NCBI GenBank assembly: GCA_029776065.1
Contig: JARVJP010000009.1
Span: forward strand, 260,514 to 324,513
Direction of reading: 5' to 3'
Source of the DNA: Nitrososphaeria archaeon
GTDB taxonomy: Archaea > Thermoproteota > Nitrososphaeria > JACIWG01
DNA: 64,000 nucleotides
Shown here: positions 52,016 to 64,000 of the stretch, piece by piece
Layout of the letters: each line of letters opens with the position of its first letter
How positions within the stretch are numbered: the stretch's first letter is position 1
Notes under the pieces: generated by a model
The model's database searches: none
The model's input: only the letters and a program-made list of their open reading frames with translations
What the model was told of the DNA's origin: nothing
Position numbers and translations under genes: made by a program

Positions 52016-52091
52016 GCTCCGATGGTGTAGTCCGGTCAAGCATGTCGGCCTTTCGAGCCGTAGATCCCGGGTTCAAATCCCGGTCGGAGCA
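52016..52091 (+). tRNA. tRNA-Glu(TTC)
   Basis: Acceptor GCTCCGA/TCGGAGC, anticodon TTC. Confidence 0.95.
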
Positions 52092-52273
52092 CTTAAACCC
52101 TCCGTTTAGAATCGCCACCAGATTTTGTTACAACATCACCAAAACTACTTATAGATGTCTCTTAAATATGACTAATTTTAGGTGCTTTAACTTTGATGGC
52201 GGGAAGTCCTCCTGCGAAAGCTGGGGGATGAAAGCCGAAAAATATTTATAGTTTATAAAGAAAATTAGTAACT

Positions 52274-52681
52274 ATGAAATATAAGCTTGATAGAGGCGCG
52301 CATTCAGTTTATGCTCTTCAATATCATCTTGTTCAGGTAGTAAAATATCGCAGACAGGTGTTCGAAAATGAGAAGATTGTGGATTTTCTGAAGCAAAAAA
52401 TAAGAGAAATAAGCGAAAGTTTTGATGTAGATGTTCTAAACATTGAATGCAATAAAGACCATTTCCACATGCTTTTCAAGGCGAAGCCAACATTAGATAT
52501 GCCAAGATACATCAATGCGATAAAAACTATAACGTCGAGGGAAATCCAGAGAAACTTCCCTGAAGTAAAGGAAAAGCTTTGGAAGGGGGTTTTCTGGTCT
52601 CCATCATATTTCCTCGCCACAACTGGGCAAGTGACTTTGGATGTTTTGAAAAAGTATGTTGAGGAGCAAGGGAATGCCTAG
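52274..52681 (+). CDS. tnpA: IS200/IS605 TnpA, Y1 HUH transposase
   Basis: NKDHFHMLFKAKP (HUH) and VLKKYVEEQGNA catalytic Tyr region. Confidence 0.93.
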   Translation: MKYKLDRGAHSVYALQYHLVQVVKYRRQVFENEKIVDFLKQKIREISESFDVDVLNIECNKDHFHMLFKAKPTLDMPRYINAIKTITSREIQRNFPEVKEKLWKGVFWSPSYFLATTGQVTLDVLKKYVEEQGNA

Positions 52682-53783
52682 CTACAAGTTCAGGATTTAT
52701 CCAAGCAAGGAACAAGAGGGAAGATTGTTTGAAACTTTAGAGTTGTGTAGGCAAACTTACAACTATTTCTTGGCTGAATGGAATGGAAGGGGCAAGATAC
52801 CAAGCAGAATTAAGCTTCAGTCTCAGCTACCTAAACTGAAGAAGGAAAAGCCTGAGTTGAACAGGGTCTACTCAAAAGTTTTGCAGATGGTTCTCCACCA
52901 GCTTTACTCAAACCTAAAAGCCTTATCACAGTTGAAGAAAAATGGAAAGAAAGTTGGACGGTTAAGGTTCAAGGGTAAAGGTTGGTTCAAAACATTCGTC
53001 TACAACCAAAGTGGTTTCAAATTGATAAAAACAGGGAAGAGGCTTGACTTGCTCCACCTATCTAAAATAGGCGACATACCTATAAGGGTTCACAGACCCG
53101 TTGAAGGAAGAATTAAACAAGTCATAGTGAAGAGGCATAACTCGGGCAAATGGTTTGCCTGTGTTTGCGTTGAGAAAGAAGTGAACGTTGTTCAAAGAGA
53201 GCCTAAAAATGTTGTAGGCTTAGATGTTGGAATAAAACACTTTCTCACGGACAGTGACGGAAGACAAATAGAGAATCCGAGATTCTATGAGAAAACACTT
53301 AGAAGGATAAGAGTTCTCCAACATTGGCTTTCAAGGAAGCGTAAAGGCTCAAAAAATAGAGAGAAACAGAGAATCAAGCTTGCCAAAGCTTATGAAAGGC
53401 TTATAAACCAAAGAAACGACTTTCTGCATAAACTTTCAAGATTCTATGTAAACAATTACGACGTAATATGTGTTGAAAACCTAAACATAAAAAATATGGT
53501 TAGAAACCACAACTTAGCCCAGAAGATACTTGATGCCTCTTGGGGAAAATTCCTTCAGATGTTGTCCTACAAAGCTGAGAACGCTGGTAGGACGGTCGTG
53601 AAGGTGAACCCAAGAGGCACATCAGAAGGGCTAAGTTATGAAAATCCCTATAAGGATTGGATTTCAGCTATGCGAATAAAGATGCGGGGATGGAACAACC
53701 CTAAGACGCCTGCTAAGATGAAGCCCCTACTGGCTTACGTGCCAGCAAGCCTCATCGTTGAAGCAGGAAGCCCCTTGCGATAG
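52656..53783 (+). CDS. tnpB: TnpB, RuvC-like RNA-guided nuclease family
   Basis: VVGLDVGIKHFLTDSDG, VICVENLNIKNM, KDWISAMRIKMRGW; Cys zinc ribbon not apparent. Confidence 0.9.
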   Translation: MLRSKGMPSYKFRIYPSKEQEGRLFETLELCRQTYNYFLAEWNGRGKIPSRIKLQSQLPKLKKEKPELNRVYSKVLQMVLHQLYSNLKALSQLKKNGKKVGRLRFKGKGWFKTFVYNQSGFKLIKTGKRLDLLHLSKIGDIPIRVHRPVEGRIKQVIVKRHNSGKWFACVCVEKEVNVVQREPKNVVGLDVGIKHFLTDSDGRQIENPRFYEKTLRRIRVLQHWLSRKRKGSKNREKQRIKLAKAYERLINQRNDFLHKLSRFYVNNYDVICVENLNIKNMVRNHNLAQKILDASWGKFLQMLSYKAENAGRTVVKVNPRGTSEGLSYENPYKDWISAMRIKMRGWNNPKTPAKMKPLLAYVPASLIVEAGSPLR

Positions 53784-53790: not shown

Positions 53791-53927
53791 TAGTTCACGG
53801 TTATCATGGGATATTTTTGTCTATAGATATATTACAACCGAGGATGTGAAACTAAGTGACGGCTCGGAAGGCTCCAATTTTTTCTCTCATAATCTTTTGC
53901 GAGCATTCTGGCGCTTCTATATGTTAG

Positions 53928-54146
53928 GTGGGTATGGAGATAGAGCTTGAGGGCGTTGTTAGGGCTACTGGCCCGGGTAGGATGGTTATCGCTAAGGAGA
54001 GGGTGAGGTACTGGTTTGTCAAGAACGCTAAGCTCGTCGAAGTCGAGAACTGTGAAGCCCTTAAGGCGATGGGGAAGGGGGAGCGTAGGAAGCTGCATGG
54101 GAAGCATGTGAAGATAGTGATTGAAATAGAGGGGGTGGAAGCATGA
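53928..54146 (+). CDS. Hypothetical 72-aa protein
   Basis: Start of a run of overlapping + strand ORFs (54143 start overlaps its stop). Confidence 0.6.
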   Translation: MGMEIELEGVVRATGPGRMVIAKERVRYWFVKNAKLVEVENCEALKAMGKGERRKLHGKHVKIVIEIEGVEA

Positions 54147-55132
54147 GGGTTCATGTTTTCGCTGCATCTTCTTTAACAATCCTCCTACTACTCTCCTTCC
54201 TGCAGACGAGCGTGTATGCTGCTAGCTCGGTGCCTATCACGGTGCGATGCGTCTTCGAGGACGGTAGACCTGCGGCAAACGTCCTAGTTGAGGTGTACCA
54301 TGAGAGCGGCCTATTCGGGAAGATGGTGACGGATTTAAATGGTAAGGCTGTTCTCAACCTCCCAGCCAACGAGACATTCACCTTCAAAACCTCATGGTTC
54401 GGGTGGAACGACCAGAGACAGATCACCGTTAAAGTGCCTGTTACGTTAGAGTTCTCGGTGAACGTGGTTGTATACCCTGTTGAGAAAGCCTTCATCCCAC
54501 TCCGCCTTGTAACACTCACGCCCGGAGGGTTCTCGATGTACTTTGAGAAAGCGGATAAGGTTAACGCAACGGTCCAAGCTCTCCAAGGCACGAAGTATTC
54601 TCTTACGATACAGGGCCAGACCGTGACGTTTAGGTCGAACGAGACAGACACCTACTTCATCTTCGTAAACGTGCAGTACAGGGATGTTTCATGGCGCTCT
54701 ATCACGTTAAGCACCTTCTCTGACACCACCTCGCAGAGGGTTTCCCAGAGCATGCTCGTCTATTCCCCTGAAATTGAAGTACAAGCCGTTGTGGACGGTG
54801 TTCCCGCACCACATTACCCTACCTCAGATGAAGTCGCAGAAGCTATGATGAAGCAATGGCAGGCGATGAAGAACGACATTATAAAATCAGTGGTCCAATC
54901 CCTGAGAGACGAGATGCAGCCCGTGCAGGTTGGCGTGAAAAACCTGCAGAACAAGACAGGAGAGCTTTCACAGCAGATCGACATCCTGAGCTCGCTTTCA
55001 AAGGACATGAGCGGTTTCATGAGGAACACGTTGAACAGTTTCCAGGCAAACGCTTGGACGAGCATCGTAGTGTTTGCGGCAATAGTTCTCATCCTACTCA
55101 TCGCCATATACATGAAGAGGGAGATGCGTTGA
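54143..55132 (+). CDS. Secreted protein: signal peptide, carboxypeptidase-regulatory-like domain, coiled coil, C-terminal TM
   Basis: VHVFAASSLTILLLLSFLQTSVYA; CVFEDGRPAANVLVEVYHESGLFGKMVTDLNGKAVLNLP; SIVVFAAIVLILLIAIYMKREMR. Confidence 0.75.
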   Translation: MRVHVFAASSLTILLLLSFLQTSVYAASSVPITVRCVFEDGRPAANVLVEVYHESGLFGKMVTDLNGKAVLNLPANETFTFKTSWFGWNDQRQITVKVPVTLEFSVNVVVYPVEKAFIPLRLVTLTPGGFSMYFEKADKVNATVQALQGTKYSLTIQGQTVTFRSNETDTYFIFVNVQYRDVSWRSITLSTFSDTTSQRVSQSMLVYSPEIEVQAVVDGVPAPHYPTSDEVAEAMMKQWQAMKNDIIKSVVQSLRDEMQPVQVGVKNLQNKTGELSQQIDILSSLSKDMSGFMRNTLNSFQANAWTSIVVFAAIVLILLIAIYMKREMR

Positions 55133-56208
55133 AGGACCAGAAGGCCTACCCGATCACATTATACATTTCAATCCTAGCGTTAGCGTTCATACTAATTTCT
55201 GGAGCGTGGAGCCAAATCTACGAAACATACACAGTGCCAGCCCTGACAGTGTTGGCTTTCCTACTCCTCTTCATAGCTTGGCTGCTAGGCAACACGAGGC
55301 CCGGCTTCCCTGGGAGGATGCTGGGCATCACATTGTTCTACGGCCTACAGGGCTCAACCTTCAGACGCTTCGAAGCATTGCTCGTAGACATAACCGACAG
55401 CTTAAGCGATGATGCGTTGAACGAGTTCCGCCAAGCAGCGAAAGAAGACCTAGGGGAACAGTATAAGAAGGAAGGCGACGAGAAAAAGAGATCCGACATA
55501 CAGAAGGCGATGGAGGCGCTTGATAAGGTCAACGCCACTGAGGTAAAAAGGTTCATGCAGGTCTACGGCTGCAGGAGGGACTTCACCAGACACGTGTGGG
55601 TCGTGCTAGCTGAGAAACCTATCGAGGAATACATGTTCGCAAGCACGATAACCTCGTTCACCCTACCGTTCGGCTACATTAGGAGACAGGCAGTGTTCGG
55701 GTTAAGACACGATTTCGGCCGGATGAAAGTTGCTAGAGAAACGCTGAGAGTTCACCTGTTCATGCCCCTCCTAGATGTAGAAAAAGTCTCCGAAAATAAG
55801 ATGGTTCCAGGAGAGTTTGCTTCAGCCTTAGCTGAAATCGGTGCAGCCATACGCAGTGCACTGTTACTGCGTATAGAGAACAGGATGCTGAGGAAGGAGT
55901 TGAAGGCGAGGGAGAAGAGGATGCGTGAAACCGAGAGGCAGCTCAGCAGGCTCGCGAAGGAAACGGACATAGCGAGGGAGGCTGCTAAATCAAAGGTGCT
56001 CGAGCCACCTACAGAGGATGAAGCGAAGATTGCGAAGTCGAAGCCTGTTCAATCCCTATACTATGAACTGCTTTTCGCTACAGTAGCAGGCCAAATAATC
56101 GGTGCTGCACTGATTCCACAACTGGTTCAAATAGACGCCTTCATGGCAAGCGTTCTAGGGTCTATAGGAGGAGCAGCGGTCTTCTTCGTGTTCGTTGCGG
56201 AAAGGTGA
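55129..56208 (+). CDS. Polytopic membrane protein with large cytoplasmic/coiled-coil domain
   Basis: TTG start overlapping the previous TGA (MKDQKAYPITLYISILALAFILISGAW...); TM pairs at both ends. The tracked start 54856 lies in the wrong frame over the previous gene. Confidence 0.75.
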   Translation: MKDQKAYPITLYISILALAFILISGAWSQIYETYTVPALTVLAFLLLFIAWLLGNTRPGFPGRMLGITLFYGLQGSTFRRFEALLVDITDSLSDDALNEFRQAAKEDLGEQYKKEGDEKKRSDIQKAMEALDKVNATEVKRFMQVYGCRRDFTRHVWVVLAEKPIEEYMFASTITSFTLPFGYIRRQAVFGLRHDFGRMKVARETLRVHLFMPLLDVEKVSENKMVPGEFASALAEIGAAIRSALLLRIENRMLRKELKAREKRMRETERQLSRLAKETDIAREAAKSKVLEPPTEDEAKIAKSKPVQSLYYELLFATVAGQIIGAALIPQLVQIDAFMASVLGSIGGAAVFFVFVAER

Positions 56209-56878
56209 TCCCGTGAGCAGTGTTGAAGACTACCTTTCATCAATTAGGGATGAGATAGAGAATACGAAGGAGGAGATGAGGGATGCGGAGGCGACCGTGA
56301 AATCGTTCGTAGACTTTGTTACTTCAGATAGGCTTTTCAAAGACTACAGCAGGTTCTACCAGCTAGCCTACGACACCCAGAAGGTTGCGAAGGTCTTGGT
56401 TGAGAAGCTTCTATCGTTCGAGATGCAGATCAAGAAGGCTGAGGTGCAGCAGCCTCAGGTAAAGCCTGTGGAAGAGGTGAAGGAAGGAGGTAGGCCGGAG
56501 GAGAAGAAGGGAATCCTCTCACGTATAAGAGAGCGTTTATCAGTAAAGCGGGTTAAGAGGAAGCCTCACAGGGAACCTGCTGTAAACAGCTTGATAGAAT
56601 ACGGGCGTAGCACGATCAGCAGGCTCGACGTGATCTGGAAAGAGTACCGAAACCGCTACCTCCTAATAGCACATCAAGACGTGGAACCTGATATGGAGAG
56701 AGAGCTGCAGAGCAACCTCGAATTCATTTCATATATTACCAACGTGTGCGCAGACATCGTAACGTTCGTGGACGCAGCATACAGCATGAAGATAGCGGAG
56801 CTGGAGGAGAAGTACTCACAACTTATGAAGGCTCTCACGGTTTCTGAAACAGCGCAGCAACCTCTTCCAAAGGAATAA
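56195..56878 (+). CDS. Coiled-coil protein
   Basis: Overlaps previous ORF; SVEDYLSSIRDEIENTKEEMRDAEATVKSF. Confidence 0.65.
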   Translation: MRKGDPVSSVEDYLSSIRDEIENTKEEMRDAEATVKSFVDFVTSDRLFKDYSRFYQLAYDTQKVAKVLVEKLLSFEMQIKKAEVQQPQVKPVEEVKEGGRPEEKKGILSRIRERLSVKRVKRKPHREPAVNSLIEYGRSTISRLDVIWKEYRNRYLLIAHQDVEPDMERELQSNLEFISYITNVCADIVTFVDAAYSMKIAELEEKYSQLMKALTVSETAQQPLPKE

Positions 56879-56944
56879 GATGTTCACTGGTTTGGCACTT
56901 CTCATGATTCAAGCCTAGAAATTTTTGCCTCTATACTTTAGGAA

Positions 56945-57952
56945 ATGCCAGAACCCGAAGCTTATAAGAATAAAATTATCTGCGGAAACAGCCTAGAAGT
57001 TTTAAAGAACTTTCCTTCAGAAAGCATAGACATGTGTATGTTCAGCCCACCATATTATGGGTTGCGTGATTACGGTAGAAATGCGGAAACTGTTTGGAGC
57101 GATGGATGGCTTGGGCAATTGGGTTTAGAGCCGAATACGAAAATGTACGTTCAACATATGGTTGAAATTAATCATGAGATAAAACGCATCTTGAAACAGA
57201 CTGGAAGCATGTATATTGTTTTAGGAGACACTTATGCTGGTTCCAATTGTGGAAGAGGCGATAAAACTCTTTTTCAAAATTATCGTAGGATGAAGGTTGC
57301 TGAAAACCTGTACGATAAGCCCAGCCCCCAAGCAAAGACCAAGGAATACAAACCCAAATGTCTCATCGGTGTTCCTTGGAGGGTTGCCTTCGCCCTCATA
57401 GATGATGGGTGGATATTAAGAAACTGTTTAGTGTGGTTTAAGCCAAATCACATGCCAAGCTCAGTCAAGGATAGATACTCTAACACCTACGAGTTCATCT
57501 TTTTCTTTGTTAAAAATAGGAAATACTATTTCAATTTAGATGCTATAAGGGAGCCTCATACGAGCATCAAAGATCTGGGAAGAAAAAGAACTGATCAAAT
57601 CCATAGCAAATACTATGGGATAAGACCAAGTGGGTACCTTGTCCAACATCCCAAGGGCAAGAATCCAGGAGATTGTTGGAGTATCCCTACTAAACCTTTC
57701 AAGGAAACACATTTTGCGGTAATGCCTGAAGACATTTGCGTGAAACCAATACTATCAAGCTGTCCTGAAAATGGGATCGTCCTTGACCCGTTTTGCGGTT
57801 CTGGGACAACATGTGTAGTAGCGAAGAAACTTAGTAGAAACTATATCGGAATAGACATAAATCAAAGATACTGTGAGATAGCAAGGCAGAGGCTTGCCCA
57901 AGTACCTGAAAAACTAACCAACTTTATGGAAGCCAAAATAGTTAACGGGTAA
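56945..57952 (+). CDS. Site-specific DNA methyltransferase (SPPYYG type)
   Basis: MCMFSPPYYGLRDYG and VLDPFCGSGTTCVVAKKL. Confidence 0.93.
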   Translation: MPEPEAYKNKIICGNSLEVLKNFPSESIDMCMFSPPYYGLRDYGRNAETVWSDGWLGQLGLEPNTKMYVQHMVEINHEIKRILKQTGSMYIVLGDTYAGSNCGRGDKTLFQNYRRMKVAENLYDKPSPQAKTKEYKPKCLIGVPWRVAFALIDDGWILRNCLVWFKPNHMPSSVKDRYSNTYEFIFFFVKNRKYYFNLDAIREPHTSIKDLGRKRTDQIHSKYYGIRPSGYLVQHPKGKNPGDCWSIPTKPFKETHFAVMPEDICVKPILSSCPENGIVLDPFCGSGTTCVVAKKLSRNYIGIDINQRYCEIARQRLAQVPEKLTNFMEAKIVNG

Positions 57953-57966
57953 ACTTTGGCAAACGG

Positions 57967-58591
57967 TTAAGGGCTTCCCCTTCGTTTCCCACCCTCCTTG
58001 GAAGGAATCATCTCAAAAGCATTAATTACGTGTTCTTCTCTCTTGATTCCAGTTAATTTTTCAGCTTCTTCATTCGCATACTCCTCAGCTGTGTGAGATG
58101 GGCCCCAGTACCAATGCTTTAAATGCCCAACCTCATGTGCTACAGTGAAGCGTAGGAGCCGATCTGCTTTTTCAGGGTCTTCCTTGAAGAGTTGGTCGAA
58201 GCGTTCAGTTATATAGATCTTCGGATTAACTCTCACCTTGTCTTTAACCGATCCGTCTGGGTTATATGTCACCACCCACCCTTTGAGCCTCTGGCATGAG
58301 CCAAGGTGCCTACCCTTTGTTTTGACGAACTCGATTTCTGGAGCATCGACATTAAGCTCTCTGCAATAATGTTTCATGAGCAGCCTCGCCCTCAGCCTCC
58401 AATCCACGTTAGGAGCCGACTTCGTAGCCTCTATGGCGCTGGTGAGCTCCTCCCTTCGCTCTTTCAGGAGTGATTGCTTGTCCGTAGCCCTAGAAGCTAT
58501 TGGGTGAACTACCTTCTTCTCATCGGTGTAGAAGCTTAGAACCTTTCTCTTGTATCCTTCTGGAAGCGTTATCCTCCTCGTAAGGCGTCAC
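57967..58591 (-). CDS. Zinc metalloprotease (HEVGH) with N-terminal module shared with the upstream gene
   Basis: FTVAHEVGHLKHWYWG. Frame is open from the TGA at 58588-58590 (RLTRRITLPEGYKRKVLSFYTDEKKVVHPIASRATDKQSLLKERREELTSAIEATKSAPN) to the tracked GTG at 58405-58407. Confidence 0.75.
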
Positions 58592-59643
58592 TGCTCCATT
58601 TTAGCGATGCAGACCTGGGTTATCGCAGTCTCCTTGGATGCAGGTTCGATAGCCATGAACGTGTCGGTCAACTTAATGTTGTATGCACTGGAGTTTAGTG
58701 AAGTGACGGCGTCCTTCATAAGCTTGGCGTTGAATGCGATTTCTGGGCCGTAGTAAGGTCCATCCAGTATTTTAGTCGCTTTAGTTACATATCTTCCTTC
58801 AACCCATTTATCGTTCTCCCACCTCCCTTCTTCATACGCTCTAGCTTCTAATATTGGTTGGCCTGCCTTGTCCGCTTTCAAGACTAAGAGGGGGTCTCTG
58901 CCTTTTGCGGCTTCGATCGCCTCCTTCAGATCTCTATGGGTTACTACAAGCTCAGCCTTCTTTTCTCCCTCTAGGCGTTTTTTCACCACGTTAAGCACTA
59001 TGCCATCTTCTCGTACAAAGTCGTTTTCTTCATCTACTGGATGCAGTGGGAAACGAAATTCTTTCTTGATGCCTTTGTTTCTGAGCTCCATCCTAAGTAG
59101 GTAGTCTCCCGGGTTATCCGTGTCCCTGATTAAATCGAACTCCCAGTTTACACCTGGTTCGTTTTTGTTCCTGCGTATGATCTCTTTTATTGGCCTAACA
59201 GAATCTATTTCAAAGTCACTTTTTGCGCCTTCGCCTACTTCATTGGATATAGGTATTTCCGTGAAAGAGAAGCTTACTGAGCTAGGGTCTCTGTTGAATA
59301 AAACCAGTTTATCCTTGTAAAGTTTCAGTCTAGCATGCCCCGTGTTTTTGTCGGCATAGGATAAGACACTGTACAGGGAATTAAGGCGTTGTGCATCCAG
59401 TTTGAACTTGTGGTCTCTTGGTGTATGTTTAAAACCTACATCCTCCTCGATAACCTTATTCCTCTGCTCCAGGTTTTCTGTAGGCTCCTCAACCTTTGAG
59501 AGGATCTCCTTCCTCCGCTCCTTTAACTCCTGCAGGCCCGTGGCCTTCGTTATCGGGCGAACCCTTTTTTCCTCATCTGTGAAGAATCCAGTAACCTTCT
59601 TCTTGTACCTTTCTGGGAGCTCAATTTTCACAACCCGGGGCAT
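58588..59643 (-). CDS. Putative sliding-clamp (PCNA/DnaN)-like protein with N-terminal extension
   Basis: LKLYKDKLVLFNRDPSSVSFSF; C-terminal GPEIAFNAKLMKDAVTSLNSSAYNIKLTDTFMAIEPASKETAITQVCIAKMEQ resembles a clamp third domain. Confidence 0.55.
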   Translation of the reverse strand: MPRVVKIELPERYKKKVTGFFTDEEKRVRPITKATGLQELKERRKEILSKVEEPTENLEQRNKVIEEDVGFKHTPRDHKFKLDAQRLNSLYSVLSYADKNTGHARLKLYKDKLVLFNRDPSSVSFSFTEIPISNEVGEGAKSDFEIDSVRPIKEIIRRNKNEPGVNWEFDLIRDTDNPGDYLLRMELRNKGIKKEFRFPLHPVDEENDFVREDGIVLNVVKKRLEGEKKAELVVTHRDLKEAIEAAKGRDPLLVLKADKAGQPILEARAYEEGRWENDKWVEGRYVTKATKILDGPYYGPEIAFNAKLMKDAVTSLNSSAYNIKLTDTFMAIEPASKETAITQVCIAKMEQ

Positions 59644-59647
59644 AACT

Positions 59648-59676
59648 CTCTAAATGATAGAGTGCACAGAATTCTG
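59648..59676. promoter_or_regulatory. Two small inverted repeats in a divergent promoter (CTCTA-AATGA-TAGAG; CAGAATTCTG)
   Basis: Located between divergent starts at 59643 (-) and 59701 (+). Confidence 0.4.
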
Positions 59677-59700
59677 CATCTTCTATGGTGTTGACGGAAA

Positions 59701-59994
59701 ATGGCTAAAAGAAGGCTTCCACCTATAAGTACAGGCCATAGCCCGATACTAGGCGCCATCGAGCTAACGAAGGAGGAGATCAAGGAGCTGAACGAGAAAG
59801 GCAGCGTGGAAGTAGAGCTTGAAGTAGAGGGCAAGACCATAAAGAAGACCATTCACCCATCGAATGTGAGAGGAGGTAGGGTTCAGTACTACGTGCGCAG
59901 CACTGGAGAGGTTGCTTTCAGAAACTATCCAAGCGACTACGGGCGCTCTGCCACACATCGAGCCTCTAAGGGAAAGCCTTTCGCTGGAGATTAG
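59701..59994 (+). CDS. Hypothetical 97-aa basic protein
   Basis: Directly upstream of the ATPase gene; MAKRRLPPISTGHSPILGAIELTKEEIKELNEKG. Confidence 0.6.
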   Translation: MAKRRLPPISTGHSPILGAIELTKEEIKELNEKGSVEVELEVEGKTIKKTIHPSNVRGGRVQYYVRSTGEVAFRNYPSDYGRSATHRASKGKPFAGD

Positions 59995-60001
59995 TTAAAC
60001 G

Positions 60002-62092
60002 ATGCCTGAGGAGGAGCAGGGGGCATATGCTAGGGTAGAGGGCGTCTTCGGGTTCGAGCGCATGCTATCGAACATCGTGAACGGAAGGATAGAGGACGCT
60101 TACAAGATTGCTGCAATGCTTGCGAACGAGTTGAACATTCCAAGCCCGTATCCATCGCTTGAAAAATACCAGATCGCCTCTCATGTTCTAAATGCGAGGA
60201 CACCCTACTTCCTGAAAGCTGATGTGCTGAAGAGCCTAGGCCTCGATCCTACTCTAACGTTCGAGGAGAACGTGAAGCTACTGTACAGAATGAAATATGA
60301 AGCACTTAGAAGCTTATTCGTCTTCATGAACCGTGCTAGGATCCTGTTCGAGGACAGCTTCGGGATACCCTTGCACAAGCTTCTCAACCCTCAAACGGTG
60401 GACACGCTCATTTACACTTCAACAGGTGCCATAGCTGAAGTTGGAAGCATGCAGCCTGACTTCGTCAACTCAGTCATATTAACAATTTACAGCATAATCT
60501 GCGGAACCGGCATAAAACAATGTTTGAAGCTGCTGAAGTACAGCCTCCTCCACGAATGCTTTATCTGGCTGAGCAAGCACGGGCCTCTGCTGAGGAGGAG
60601 TAGGTACGCTGCTGTCGGCATAAAATATGAGATGCTCTTCTCTCGCATGCGGTCTGAAGTGCACGCTCAGCTTGACCCGCATGTTCGAACCCTAGGTGGG
60701 GAAGAATCTTTGAGGCACATAGAATACGTTCTCCCTGAGGAATGGTTGACCAGTGTGAGCAAGCGTTTCCCAGCACCCTTCCTAGTGGTTGAGAGGAGAG
60801 CTTGGGCAACAGGCATCCCTGTAGCGAACGGCACTGTGAACCTACAGCACCAGCACTTCCCATGGAGGGCTGAAGCGAACCGGCCCCTGCTTGCGACGAT
60901 ACTTGCTACCACAGGGTCTGGGAAGACCACGCTCCTCAACTCCCTAGCGTTCTACATGCTTGAAAGAGGCTCCTTCGGTTTGAGGCTTGAAATCGACGTC
61001 GATGACAGGATGCAGGGTCAACTGATGGCCCTACCATTGGATGAAAAGCACCCGGCATTCGAATCATTGAAGTCCCAGGGATGCAGCCCGAGAGGGTTCG
61101 TGGTTAGAACGCCTACTTCAACGGAGCCGGAGATAACGAAACACGCCATGAATCCTTCAATCGTCTCCCTCATGGTTGTTAAAAACAGGAGGGAGCTGCA
61201 GGAGTTGATGACCAAGCCTACAAAGCTGGACAGGTTACTCTTTGTGAGAAACCATGCGGCCTTCCACATACCATGGGACCGCATGCACAAGGAGGGGAGG
61301 CTCATCTGCCTGAGGTTCCACAGCGAGAGAAACACCGGCACAGTATTCAGCACCCTTTTGAAGAGCTTCGCATTGTGGAGGATGACTCGTAAGGACATGC
61401 CTGTGTTCGTGCAAATCGACGAAGCATACCTCGGTGCAGCATCACGTGTGAGCGCAAGATACGGTAGAACGTATCTGAGAAGCGCAGAGCAGACAGAGGT
61501 CTTCATGAGGGGTGCGAGAGGACTAGGTATCCCGACGTTTCTCTCAACGCAGAGGCCGTATTTTGTCACAGCAGGGGCGAGAAGCCAGGTCAGCCACATC
61601 TTCTCCTCGTACCTTGGAGAGGGAAGGGACATAGATGCAGTCCTCGAGAAGCTACCGCCGAAGAGCGTTGACGTCAACGTCGTAGACACGTTCCTGAAAA
61701 GAAGCGAAATACGTAGTAAACCGTACTTCTGGTTCCTATGGCTCAACCTCCTAGACAGCGAAGTCAAAGTTGTTAGGCCCATGATGCCGCCGTGTGGTGC
61801 TGAGATGCCGAACATGACTGCATGGGACCAGTTCGCAAAACACGGCCTAGCGTTTGAAAGCTGGGACGAGGTTCCAACGCTCTTCCAAGACGTTGGCACT
61901 GAGGATAATCCGCTACCGTTATACGAGCCGTTCCTCCCTGAGAAGGAGGTGGAGAAGCTCTTAGATAGGAGGAGGAAGGGCACACTGTACATGGCAGAAA
62001 AACAGGAAGAAATAGACATACAAAATGAGGACGTGGAAAGTGAACCTAAAGAATCTGAGCATGAATCAGAAGTTGAAGGCTTTAGCTTCTAA
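60002..62092 (+). CDS. VirB4/HerA-like (FtsK-HerA superfamily) ATPase
   Basis: Walker A LATTGSGKTTLLNSLAF, Walker B PVFVQIDEAYL, downstream FLSTQRP. Confidence 0.85.
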   Translation: MPEEEQGAYARVEGVFGFERMLSNIVNGRIEDAYKIAAMLANELNIPSPYPSLEKYQIASHVLNARTPYFLKADVLKSLGLDPTLTFEENVKLLYRMKYEALRSLFVFMNRARILFEDSFGIPLHKLLNPQTVDTLIYTSTGAIAEVGSMQPDFVNSVILTIYSIICGTGIKQCLKLLKYSLLHECFIWLSKHGPLLRRSRYAAVGIKYEMLFSRMRSEVHAQLDPHVRTLGGEESLRHIEYVLPEEWLTSVSKRFPAPFLVVERRAWATGIPVANGTVNLQHQHFPWRAEANRPLLATILATTGSGKTTLLNSLAFYMLERGSFGLRLEIDVDDRMQGQLMALPLDEKHPAFESLKSQGCSPRGFVVRTPTSTEPEITKHAMNPSIVSLMVVKNRRELQELMTKPTKLDRLLFVRNHAAFHIPWDRMHKEGRLICLRFHSERNTGTVFSTLLKSFALWRMTRKDMPVFVQIDEAYLGAASRVSARYGRTYLRSAEQTEVFMRGARGLGIPTFLSTQRPYFVTAGARSQVSHIFSSYLGEGRDIDAVLEKLPPKSVDVNVVDTFLKRSEIRSKPYFWFLWLNLLDSEVKVVRPMMPPCGAEMPNMTAWDQFAKHGLAFESWDEVPTLFQDVGTEDNPLPLYEPFLPEKEVEKLLDRRRKGTLYMAEKQEEIDIQNEDVESEPKESEHESEVEGFSF

Positions 62093-62250: not shown

Positions 62251-63339
62251 CTAGCTTTTTGAAATATCAACACCTTCCTTAAGAAGACTATTTAAATCTA
62301 GCACATCCCCATTTATCCAATAAATATGTTTTTCTTTAATCTCATTACCTATTCGGCCAATGTCTTTTTGATCGGGAGGTTTCACAATCATCTTTGATTT
62401 AAAATCTGGCATAATACATGATTGAATCTTGTCTAATATTTCTGTGTATTTCTCTGCAGTTGTAAATACTCTTCGAGGGACGCAATCCTTCTCTTCATTT
62501 ACTATGTAAAGTATAGCTCCTTCAATCATGGCCAACATGACTCGATAAACGCAACTAGCTATTTCAGTGAAATATTCCACTTCCTCTGGAGAAACGGGGA
62601 TTAAAGCTGTTTTAACACCATCATTTTCTTTATGCCTTACGAATATATGGCTACGTATAATACTTACATTAATATCTATCCCAAATATTCCTGTAATCTC
62701 TGAAAGACTATGCTTATATTTATTGTAGACATTTCTGAAATTCCTTTGGAAAAGATAAATCTTCTTAAAACATTCAAGGATTTTCTTTGCCGACTCGTCT
62801 AATATGTTTTGAAGGGTTTCTCGTTGTTCTTGGCATAGTTCTTTAAAGTTTCTAACATTAGGATAGTGAAAGTTAGCCCAAACGTCATTAACACTTTGTC
62901 TATTAAAGTATTCAAACTCCTTGTATAGTTCCTTTGGAGGAAAATCTTTCCTACCAATACATGTTGGTAATTTTCTAACGTCAATTCTAATTGTATGATA
63001 ATAGATGGCCAACAATTCTGTCAATATGTTAATTTTTTGAATTATCTCTAATTCTGTGTAATGTAAAGCTTTGAACATGGTATTTGCTGCCGGGTTATCT
63101 GGGGTAAGGTTCTGAGGGTCACTTAAAGATTCTTTAGAAATTTTATCCATTTGTTCTTTAAGTCCAGTTATATTTTTATCTAAAAGGGTCATACGTTCCC
63201 TTAAATTATCAAGGGAAATGATTAAGAAAATCAAGACTTCAAGGTAATTGTTACTTATTAGATATTGTTTAACCCTCTGCGGGTTGGATTTAGAGACCAT
63301 CAAACATAAATATGTGTGCAGGCTTAAAATGATTTTCAC
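62251..63339 (-). CDS. Hypothetical protein, possibly HEPN/Cthe_2314-like
   Basis: 362-aa helical ORF with RNFRNVYNKYKHSLSEITGIF segment. Confidence 0.5.
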   Translation of the reverse strand: MKIILSLHTYLCLMVSKSNPQRVKQYLISNNYLEVLIFLIISLDNLRERMTLLDKNITGLKEQMDKISKESLSDPQNLTPDNPAANTMFKALHYTELEIIQKINILTELLAIYYHTIRIDVRKLPTCIGRKDFPPKELYKEFEYFNRQSVNDVWANFHYPNVRNFKELCQEQRETLQNILDESAKKILECFKKIYLFQRNFRNVYNKYKHSLSEITGIFGIDINVSIIRSHIFVRHKENDGVKTALIPVSPEEVEYFTEIASCVYRVMLAMIEGAILYIVNEEKDCVPRRVFTTAEKYTEILDKIQSCIMPDFKSKMIVKPPDQKDIGRIGNEIKEKHIYWINGDVLDLNSLLKEGVDISKS

Positions 63340-63497: not shown

Positions 63498-64000
63498 TTA
63501 TTGATAAAATTGGACGCAATCCTCAAGCTCTTTCAAAACACTTTCTATTTCGTCAACTATTCCAAGTCCTCGTCTATAGTCTTTTGGCTTGATTTCTCCA
63601 TCAGGGTAACGTGCAAATATGGCATGAGGATAAGTTACGACAGAAAGTATAAACATTCGAGTGAACTTTGAAGCCCAATCCAAAAATTCAGGTTTAATCT
63701 TATCAAATTCATTTCTGATGATCTTGTCTAAATCTTTCGACTTGATGGAGAGCCCCGCCTCGTCTAATTGGGTTCCAATTATTTTTGACATTTCACTGGA
63801 TAAAGATTTTAGTGGGGTAATTGATGAGGCCAAATCCCTTTTTATCTTCTGGTGAAATTCGTCAATAGTTTTGCATAATTGTAGATTTCCTTGGATTTGC
63901 TCTTTTGTTAACTTTGCTACTTTAACTTTTGTTTCTGTCTTCTTTATCTTTTTTATTATTTCTCGTATTTCTAGATTTTTACTTTTGTCGATTTCCGCTG
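63498..64000 (-). CDS. Hypothetical protein (5' end beyond window)
   Basis: Minus frame stays open past the tracked start: ...TKVKVAKLTKEQIQGNLQLCKTIDEFHQKIKRDLASSITPLKSL... to the window end. Confidence 0.6.
   Translation of the reverse strand, partial: AEIDKSKNLEIREIIKKIKKTETKVKVAKLTKEQIQGNLQLCKTIDEFHQKIKRDLASSITPLKSLSSEMSKIIGTQLDEAGLSIKSKDLDKIIRNEFDKIKPEFLDWASKFTRMFILSVVTYPHAIFARYPDGEIKPKDYRRGLGIVDEIESVLKELEDCVQFYQ

Follow-up and report, generated by a model that had tools for sequence, protein, structure and literature searches.

A stretch of 64,000 nucleotides (the window) from contig JARVJP010000009.1 of a Nitrososphaeria archaeon was analyzed, and the GC-rich island in its right part was found to belong, almost certainly, to an integrated mobile element. 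This home element is 35.6 kb long and extends from about 52,081 to 87,703, with the GC-rich block as its left part; it carries a module of membrane proteins, secreted proteins, and an ATPase that recurs in other genomes and probably serves DNA transfer. Coordinates above 64,000 are the window numbering carried on into the same contig, genes beyond the window are named by their start coordinates in this numbering (e.g. 69935, 74937), and G-numbers (G001, G020, G034, and so on) are labels of the compared genomes. The home genome (G000) comprises 1.74 Mb in 16 contigs and is 95.5% complete, and the window corresponds to C3:260,514-324,513. Ribosomal protein S25e was found in 15 of 16 genomes searched, the home genome among them, and a search for archaeal AmoA detected it in other genomes of the class and not in the home genome. 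Based on these two observations, the host appears to be a Nitrososphaeria lineage without ammonia-oxidation genes.

Boundaries of the integrated element

The GC content was 0.367 at 1-52,015, 0.485 at 53,900-62,092, and 0.350 at 62,093-64,800; past the window, it was 0.42 at 64.8-71.5 kb, 0.50 at 71.5-77.5 kb, and 0.49 at 82.0-87.7 kb. Because GC-rich DNA resumes beyond the window, the AT-rich stretches at 62.1-64.8 and 77.6-82.0 kb look like cargo-like inserts within a single longer island. An earlier note on this DNA had described an abrupt GC island at 53.9-62.1 kb. The shifts are real, but the true ends of the element lie at 52.08 and 87.70 kb.

The left attachment (att) site is the 3' end of a tRNA-Glu(TTC) gene (52016-52092, plus strand). 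An 11-bp core, CGGTCGGAGCA, is located at 52081-52091 in this 3' end and at 87693-87703, and at these two places only in the 101 kb of contig examined. The right copy lies beside the integrase, an intact tyrosine recombinase gene (86,480-87,646, minus strand), immediately beyond its start. A direct repeat at a tRNA 3' end and at the far end, with an integrase adjoining, was found both in the home element and in a related element of G020. The latter spans 1,337,944-1,369,198 and is bounded by a perfect 25-bp repeat (1,337,944 and 1,369,174), which contains the tRNA 3' end (anticodon by eye GTT), and its integrase open reading frame (ORF) begins inside that tRNA. The earlier note, which recognized no integrase, capsid, or relaxase, had proposed extension past 64 kb in search of an integrase and a right att site. 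Both were found there (86,480-87,646 and 87,693-87,703), together with another recombinase at 68,642-69,694; no capsid or relaxase was found among the element proteins scanned. Misassembly at the GC shifts, named in that note as a possible refutation, is not the explanation, since the home element is embedded in a contig of 775 kb, and in another genome a homologous element is embedded in one of 1.68 Mb.

The right flank (87,670-90,048) consists of genes that are conserved in G001 and G013, two members of the home family; neither the left-flank gene nor the tRNA-Glu is located at those loci. Farther to the right, a tRNA-Asn gene (94950-95025) adjoins gene 95304, a homologue of which borders the G020 element on its right. 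The G020 element occupies a tRNA whose anticodon is that of this tRNA-Asn, and the site is possibly a common integration hot spot.

Related elements share a conserved module

The ATPase gene was detected in 5 of 300 genomes of the class, namely the home genome and four others, each of another genus; the four remaining members of the home family gave no match. A profile search for the ATPase gave 7 of 400 class genomes, two of them marginal. A phylum-level search added G482, which is outside the class, and a fragment in G507, and the 74937 family additionally marked G032. The earlier note had proposed to seek syntenic copies; in all, nine related loci were found in seven other genomes (eight genomes with the home genome). 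The metagenome-assembled contig CALBHZ010000290 is apparently the same contig as G046:C290. The patchy distribution, the att repeats at a tRNA gene, the two tyrosine recombinases, and the location of relatives at other tRNA genes bear out the suggestion that the system is mobile.

The core gene set encodes the ATPase, a coiled-coil protein, a membrane protein with two N- and two C-terminal transmembrane (TM) helices (2+2-TM protein), an Ig-like spike, about eight small proteins that are secreted or lie in the membrane, and two further enzymes, namely a tyrosine recombinase and an intramembrane protease. These genes occur in overlapping order where assembly permits, and readable element ends lie at tRNA genes. 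In the home element the module forms two blocks (lengths in amino acids, aa).

54143-55132, plus strand, block 1: secreted spike-like protein with a signal peptide, a carboxypeptidase-regulatory/Ig-like domain, a coiled coil, and a C-terminal TM helix
55129-56208, plus strand, block 1: 2+2-TM membrane protein with a coiled-coil middle
56195-56878, plus strand, block 1: soluble coiled-coil protein, with homologues in G046, G020, G034, G054, and G482
60002-62092, plus strand, block 1: FtsK/HerA-superfamily ATPase, 696 aa, with a helical N-terminal region (1-230) and a P-loop domain
64,846, block 1: gene of an unassigned family
68,642-69,694, block 1: tyrosine recombinase
69,935, block 2: protein of about 117 aa with 3-4 TM helices
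71,547 and 71,796, block 2: two further genes
72,357, block 2: adhesin with a signal peptide and a C-terminal TM helix, 398-657 aa in complete copies
74,175, block 2: small protein with 2 TM helices
74,381, block 2: CPBP intramembrane protease, Rce1-like (E 1.1e-7)
74,937, 75,778, and 76,295, block 2: three further genes

The 55129 gene begins with a TTG codon inside the stop of the 54143 gene, and the 56195 gene overlaps the 3' end of the 55129 gene. Hence the layout is compact and overlapping, as the earlier note had stated, and the envelope-type set that it listed (a protein with a signal peptide and a C-terminal TM helix, a polytopic protein, a coiled coil, and a P-loop ATPase) is present. 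The carboxypeptidase-regulatory/Ig-like domain of the spike scores more strongly in the G020 homologue than in the home protein, and the 55129 protein has no Pfam match. Small hydrophobic proteins are represented by the 74175 and 71547 families. In the recombinases, the R and HxxR motifs and a candidate Tyr are visible.

The gene order membrane protein-coiled coil-ATPase-64846-recombinase is also seen in G034, G054, and G482, and is rearranged in G020. G034 harbors two copies of the element, beside tRNA-Cys and tRNA-Thr, which share 91% nucleotide identity over 5.4 kb of the secreted module. Protein identities between these copies are 93-100% for most block-2 proteins, 92% for the membrane protein, 71% for the ATPase, and 62% for the coiled coil, but only 31% between the recombinases and 33% between the adhesins. 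The divergence of the recombinases would fit their different tRNA targets, and that of the adhesins a surface protein under diversifying selection.

No relatives were found among the IMG/VR viral contigs with the ATPase, 74937, 55129, and 69935 as queries. tblastn gave no match to phages for the ATPase, 74937, or 69935, and nothing credible to plasmids for the ATPase. The element family is apparently rare and, within the phage, plasmid, and IMG/VR collections searched, undescribed, as the earlier note supposed.

Two observations concern proteases. An HtrA-like protease gene (70352-71524; trypsin and PDZ domains, N-terminal TM helix) lies between block genes in the home element only. In G020 (C6:1342495-1343214; home counterpart 74175-74914), the two-TM protein is inserted within the CPBP protease ORF, just before the third conserved motif of the protease; at home and in G034 the two are separate genes. 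This insertion of one protein in the other suggests that they act together.

The ATPase of the module

The Walker A (TGSGK), Walker B (DE), and TQR motifs were intact in all seven aligned ATPases. Profile searches matched the ATPase to mad8 (E 1.3e-10) and HerA (E 1e-3), and a search of the PDB matched it to a DUF87 protein (E 0.007). All seven ATPases matched phrog_2666, a packaging family annotated as 'terminase large subunit' (best E 9e-7), although in the home protein the match spans only 57 residues. The sequence-based assignment to the FtsK/HerA superfamily therefore holds, but the more specific label VirB4 given in the earlier note could not be substantiated: no VirB4 match was obtained in Pfam, the N-terminal region is modeled as helical, and neither VirD4, VirB6, nor a relaxase was found among the element proteins scanned. 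Residues 1-230 were modeled as all-helical with fair local confidence, and the remainder of the AlphaFold model was poor (mean model confidence, pLDDT, 55), for which reason no claim is made at the level of the fold.

Other genes of the home element

The cargo of the home element includes a methyltransferase, an HEXXH protein, a 'clamp-like' protein, a type IIG-like restriction-modification (R-M) protein, the HtrA-like protease, and a 773-aa P-loop protein. The remaining features are as follows.

52274-52681 and 52656-53783, plus strand: IS200/IS605-type pair, TnpA-like and TnpB (the latter by domains)
56945-57952, plus strand: DNA methyltransferase (N6_N4_Mtase), also in G020
57967-58407, minus strand: zincin-like protein with an HEXXH motif (HEVGH) read from the sequence and weak homology to a tagged G020 zincin
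58588-59643, minus strand: 351-aa 'clamp-like' protein with the N-terminal tag GFFTDEEKRVRPITK
59701-59994, plus strand: small basic protein, common to G020 (27%)
62251-63339, minus strand: AT-rich cargo ORF, 362 aa, no family
63498-64000, continuing to 64385, minus strand: HEPN-domain protein, AT-rich cargo, running off the window
65457-68534: R-M genes, cargo
86,480-87,646, minus strand: second tyrosine recombinase (integrase at the right end)

The IS200/IS605 pair near the left end is probably a later insertion. The clamp assignment made in the earlier note found no support in homology; the 58588 protein gave one sub-threshold Pfam clamp match (E 0.0065, 39 residues) and no match in the PDB or among phages. 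The 773-aa protein may be a replication protein; its only phage matches are weak and of primase type (E 0.05). Short tandem AAGGACACT repeats are located at 85558-85595 within its gene, and inverted copies lie near 85247. R-M genes of differing size follow the ATPase at home (65457-68534) and in G020 (C6:1353732-1355967); they are weakly similar, and this position is possibly a cargo hot spot. A radical-SAM protein followed by TcmP (three-Cys-motif partner, E 4e-26) is encoded at 79042-81032 in an AT-rich cargo stretch. TFIIB was not recognized; the element has only a zinc-ribbon protein.

An N-terminal tag on element proteins

The motif F-Y/F-T-D-x-x-G-R-x-R-P-I (FYTDxxGRxRPI) was found at the N-termini of otherwise unrelated element proteins, namely zincin-like proteins of G020, small proteins of G034, and the 351-aa home protein, which fits only a looser form. 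Looser forms, such as MTEFFTRGKGENRKVIPI, also occur on ArdC/zincin-like proteins of G034 and G054, and one G034 protein with a loose tag weakly matches MPTase-PolyVal and ArdcN. Outside the tag, no similarity was detected among the tagged proteins, save orthologues and one paralogous pair; the orthologous tagged copies of the G034 element pair do not count as independent cases.

Scanned with a regular expression, about 340 kb yielded eight matches; each of them lies within an element and close to where a reading frame begins. With a degenerate DNA pattern, 22 whole genomes (about 35 Mb) gave ten matches, nine of them inside elements, and a reversed control gave none. Because the pattern was derived from the same sequences, these scans indicate specificity and do not amount to an independent discovery. 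The single IMG/VR match to the pattern was left out of the count; it falls within a long protein of another type. In phages and conjugative elements, polyvalent proteins of the ArdC-N/zincin type are believed to pass into the recipient along with the DNA (PMC5512222). Guided by this literature, we consider that the tag is possibly a delivery or packaging signal for co-delivery with DNA. Polyvalent proteins are fused into one long polypeptide, whereas here separate small proteins carry a common short N-terminal tag.

Comparison with known systems

The closest design was found in the pT26-2 family (pT26-2, pGE2, and pMEFER01) of Thermococcales and Methanococcales (PMC6972569), which are integrative elements of 17-38 kb that encode a single HerA/VirB4-like ATPase, a conserved set of neighboring genes whose products are mostly membrane proteins, and, like the present elements, a carboxypeptidase-regulatory domain protein. 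In a qualitative comparison of topology, t26-6p (in two of three plasmids) corresponds to the 2+2-TM protein 55129, t26-8p (multi-TM, about 110 aa) to 69935, t26-5p and t26-13p to 72357 and 76295 (signal peptide and C-terminal TM helix), t26-11p (N-anchored, about 160 aa) to 75778, and t26-15p (soluble, about 230 aa) to 56195. On the other hand, when the core proteins t26-5p, 6p, 7p, 11p, 13p, 14p, and 15p were compared by hhalign, the ATPase reached a probability of 48 (E 1.9e-4) and all others 7 or less. Furthermore, the ATPases described here measure 660-696 aa and have an additional helical region at the N-terminus, compared with 433-447 aa in the pT26-2 family, and the hosts differ, being here Nitrososphaeria and another class of Thermoproteota.

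The pR1SE-like plasmids (PMC10818511), which spread in plasmid vesicles, likewise encode many membrane or secreted proteins, one VirB4/packaging-like ATPase, and a core protease; compared by description only, their protease is subtilisin-like, whereas that of the present elements is of the CPBP intramembrane type. Thaumarchaeal integrative-conjugative and cryptic integrated elements (PMC6563490) share overlapping host lineages, tyrosine recombinases, R-M cargo, and a majority of unassigned proteins, but no VirB4-VirD4 pair, VirB6, TadC, or FlaI was found here, nor was TFIIB recognized. Pleolipoviridae and AvPV1-like viruses (PMC10919331) also integrate at tRNA genes and encode a spike with a C-terminal anchor, a membrane protein, and an NTPase in one block. 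Their NTPase is much smaller than the present ATPase, and no profile match to VP3, VP4, ORF6, ORF7, or the NTPase was obtained (best hhalign probability 8.3, spike versus AvPV1 VP4). Membership in the HRPV, AvPV1, pKEF9/pNOB8, and pMEFER01 groups was ruled out by profile comparison. The adhesin, of about 600 aa, was also considered as a fusexin because fusexin elements carry VirB4/HerA genes (PMC9259645), and this was dropped for want of a Pfam match. Since a common design was found but, for pT26-2, no sequence match beyond the weak ATPase similarity, we regard the elements as a new family that works like the pT26-2 and pR1SE types and is a member of neither.

Proposed mechanism and alternatives

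Our best explanation, adopted with moderate confidence, is that of an integrative element whose module exports its own DNA, most likely in enveloped particles. Integration at a tRNA 3' end would be carried out by a tyrosine recombinase. Once the element is excised, the ATPase, held in place by the 2+2-TM and coiled-coil proteins, would pump element DNA across or into a membrane that bears the secreted spike and adhesin proteins, which the intramembrane CPBP protease may process. The DNA would most likely leave in non-lytic enveloped particles of the virus or plasmid-vesicle type, and these would bind new cells via the hypervariable adhesin; alternatively, transfer would depend on contact between cells. 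More tentatively, FYTDxxGRxRPI proteins (ArdC/zincin-type and others) may accompany the DNA into the new cell and protect or establish it there. It is doubtful whether one can go further and regard the elements as a new archaeal virus-like or plasmid-vesicle agent in which a 'header' tag marks swappable unrelated proteins (zincin, ArdC-like antirestriction, 'clamp-like'), which the FtsK/HerA-type motor would load and deliver together with the DNA.

Of the conjugative or DNA-transfer role suggested in the earlier note, DNA transfer is likely, and conjugation is one of two readings of it. Given transfer, we lean slightly toward enveloped particles, because the searches revealed no partner specific to conjugation, the module consists mainly of surface proteins, and the most consistent viral match of the ATPase is a packaging family. 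An integrative-conjugative element, with the ATPase as a VirB4/CedB analogue and the membrane proteins as a reduced envelope channel for cell-to-cell DNA transfer, is possible but on the whole unlikely. A relaxase is also missing from thaumarchaeal integrative-conjugative elements and Sulfolobus conjugative plasmids (PMC6563490), the ATPase is weakly similar by profile to the DUF87 and TraG-like ATPases of pKEF9 (hhalign probability 21, E 0.001), and the tagged ArdC/zincin-like proteins resemble proteins co-transferred in conjugation (PMC5512222). However, the thaumarchaeal elements typically combine VirB4 and VirD4 with VirB6, TadC/FlaI, and pilins, whereas the element proteins scanned include a single FtsK/HerA-type ATPase and gave no match to VirD4/TraG, VirB6, or a relaxase; moreover, the N-terminal region of the ATPase was modeled as all-helical, and no structural protein matched pKEF9 or pNOB8 proteins. 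A capsid was likewise not found among the element proteins scanned, with no capsid or portal match in PHROGs (window proteins) or Pfam (element proteins).

That the element is defective or domesticated, its module being reused for surface display, competition, or gene-transfer-agent-like export of host DNA, is improbable: the abundant home cargo (R-M, HEPN, radical-SAM/TcmP), the IS200/IS605 pair, and the short att repeat would fit it, but the ATPase motifs and both recombinases look intact, and the G034 copies are closely related and located at different tRNAs. Even less credible is the view that the island is a patchwork of unrelated insertions, or a misassembly, and forms no functional unit; despite the mosaic GC content with AT-rich inserts, the module and a partial gene order recur in independent genomes and within long contigs. 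Several points weigh against the best explanation. An excised circle, a particle, or transfer has never been observed, and the term 'particle' rests on architecture because no coat or fusion protein was recognized. No empty counterpart of the home insertion site was found, the home att repeat is only 11 bp, several of the other elements are contig fragments, and the 'clamp-like' protein occurs only in the home element among the loci compared. The AlphaFold models of the ATPase and 74937 were poor (pLDDT 55 and 53), and fold searches yielded nothing usable.

The elements represent a new family of integrative elements for poorly sampled lineages of Nitrososphaeria, with a conserved module that has essentially no sequence overlap with the phages, plasmids, and IMG/VR contigs searched. 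Together with the pT26-2 and pR1SE-like elements, they suggest a recurring archaeal design, apart from classic conjugation, in which one HerA-type motor is combined with small membrane and secreted proteins. Should the tag prove to be a delivery signal, it would offer a testable route to the proteins that archaeal elements bring into new hosts.

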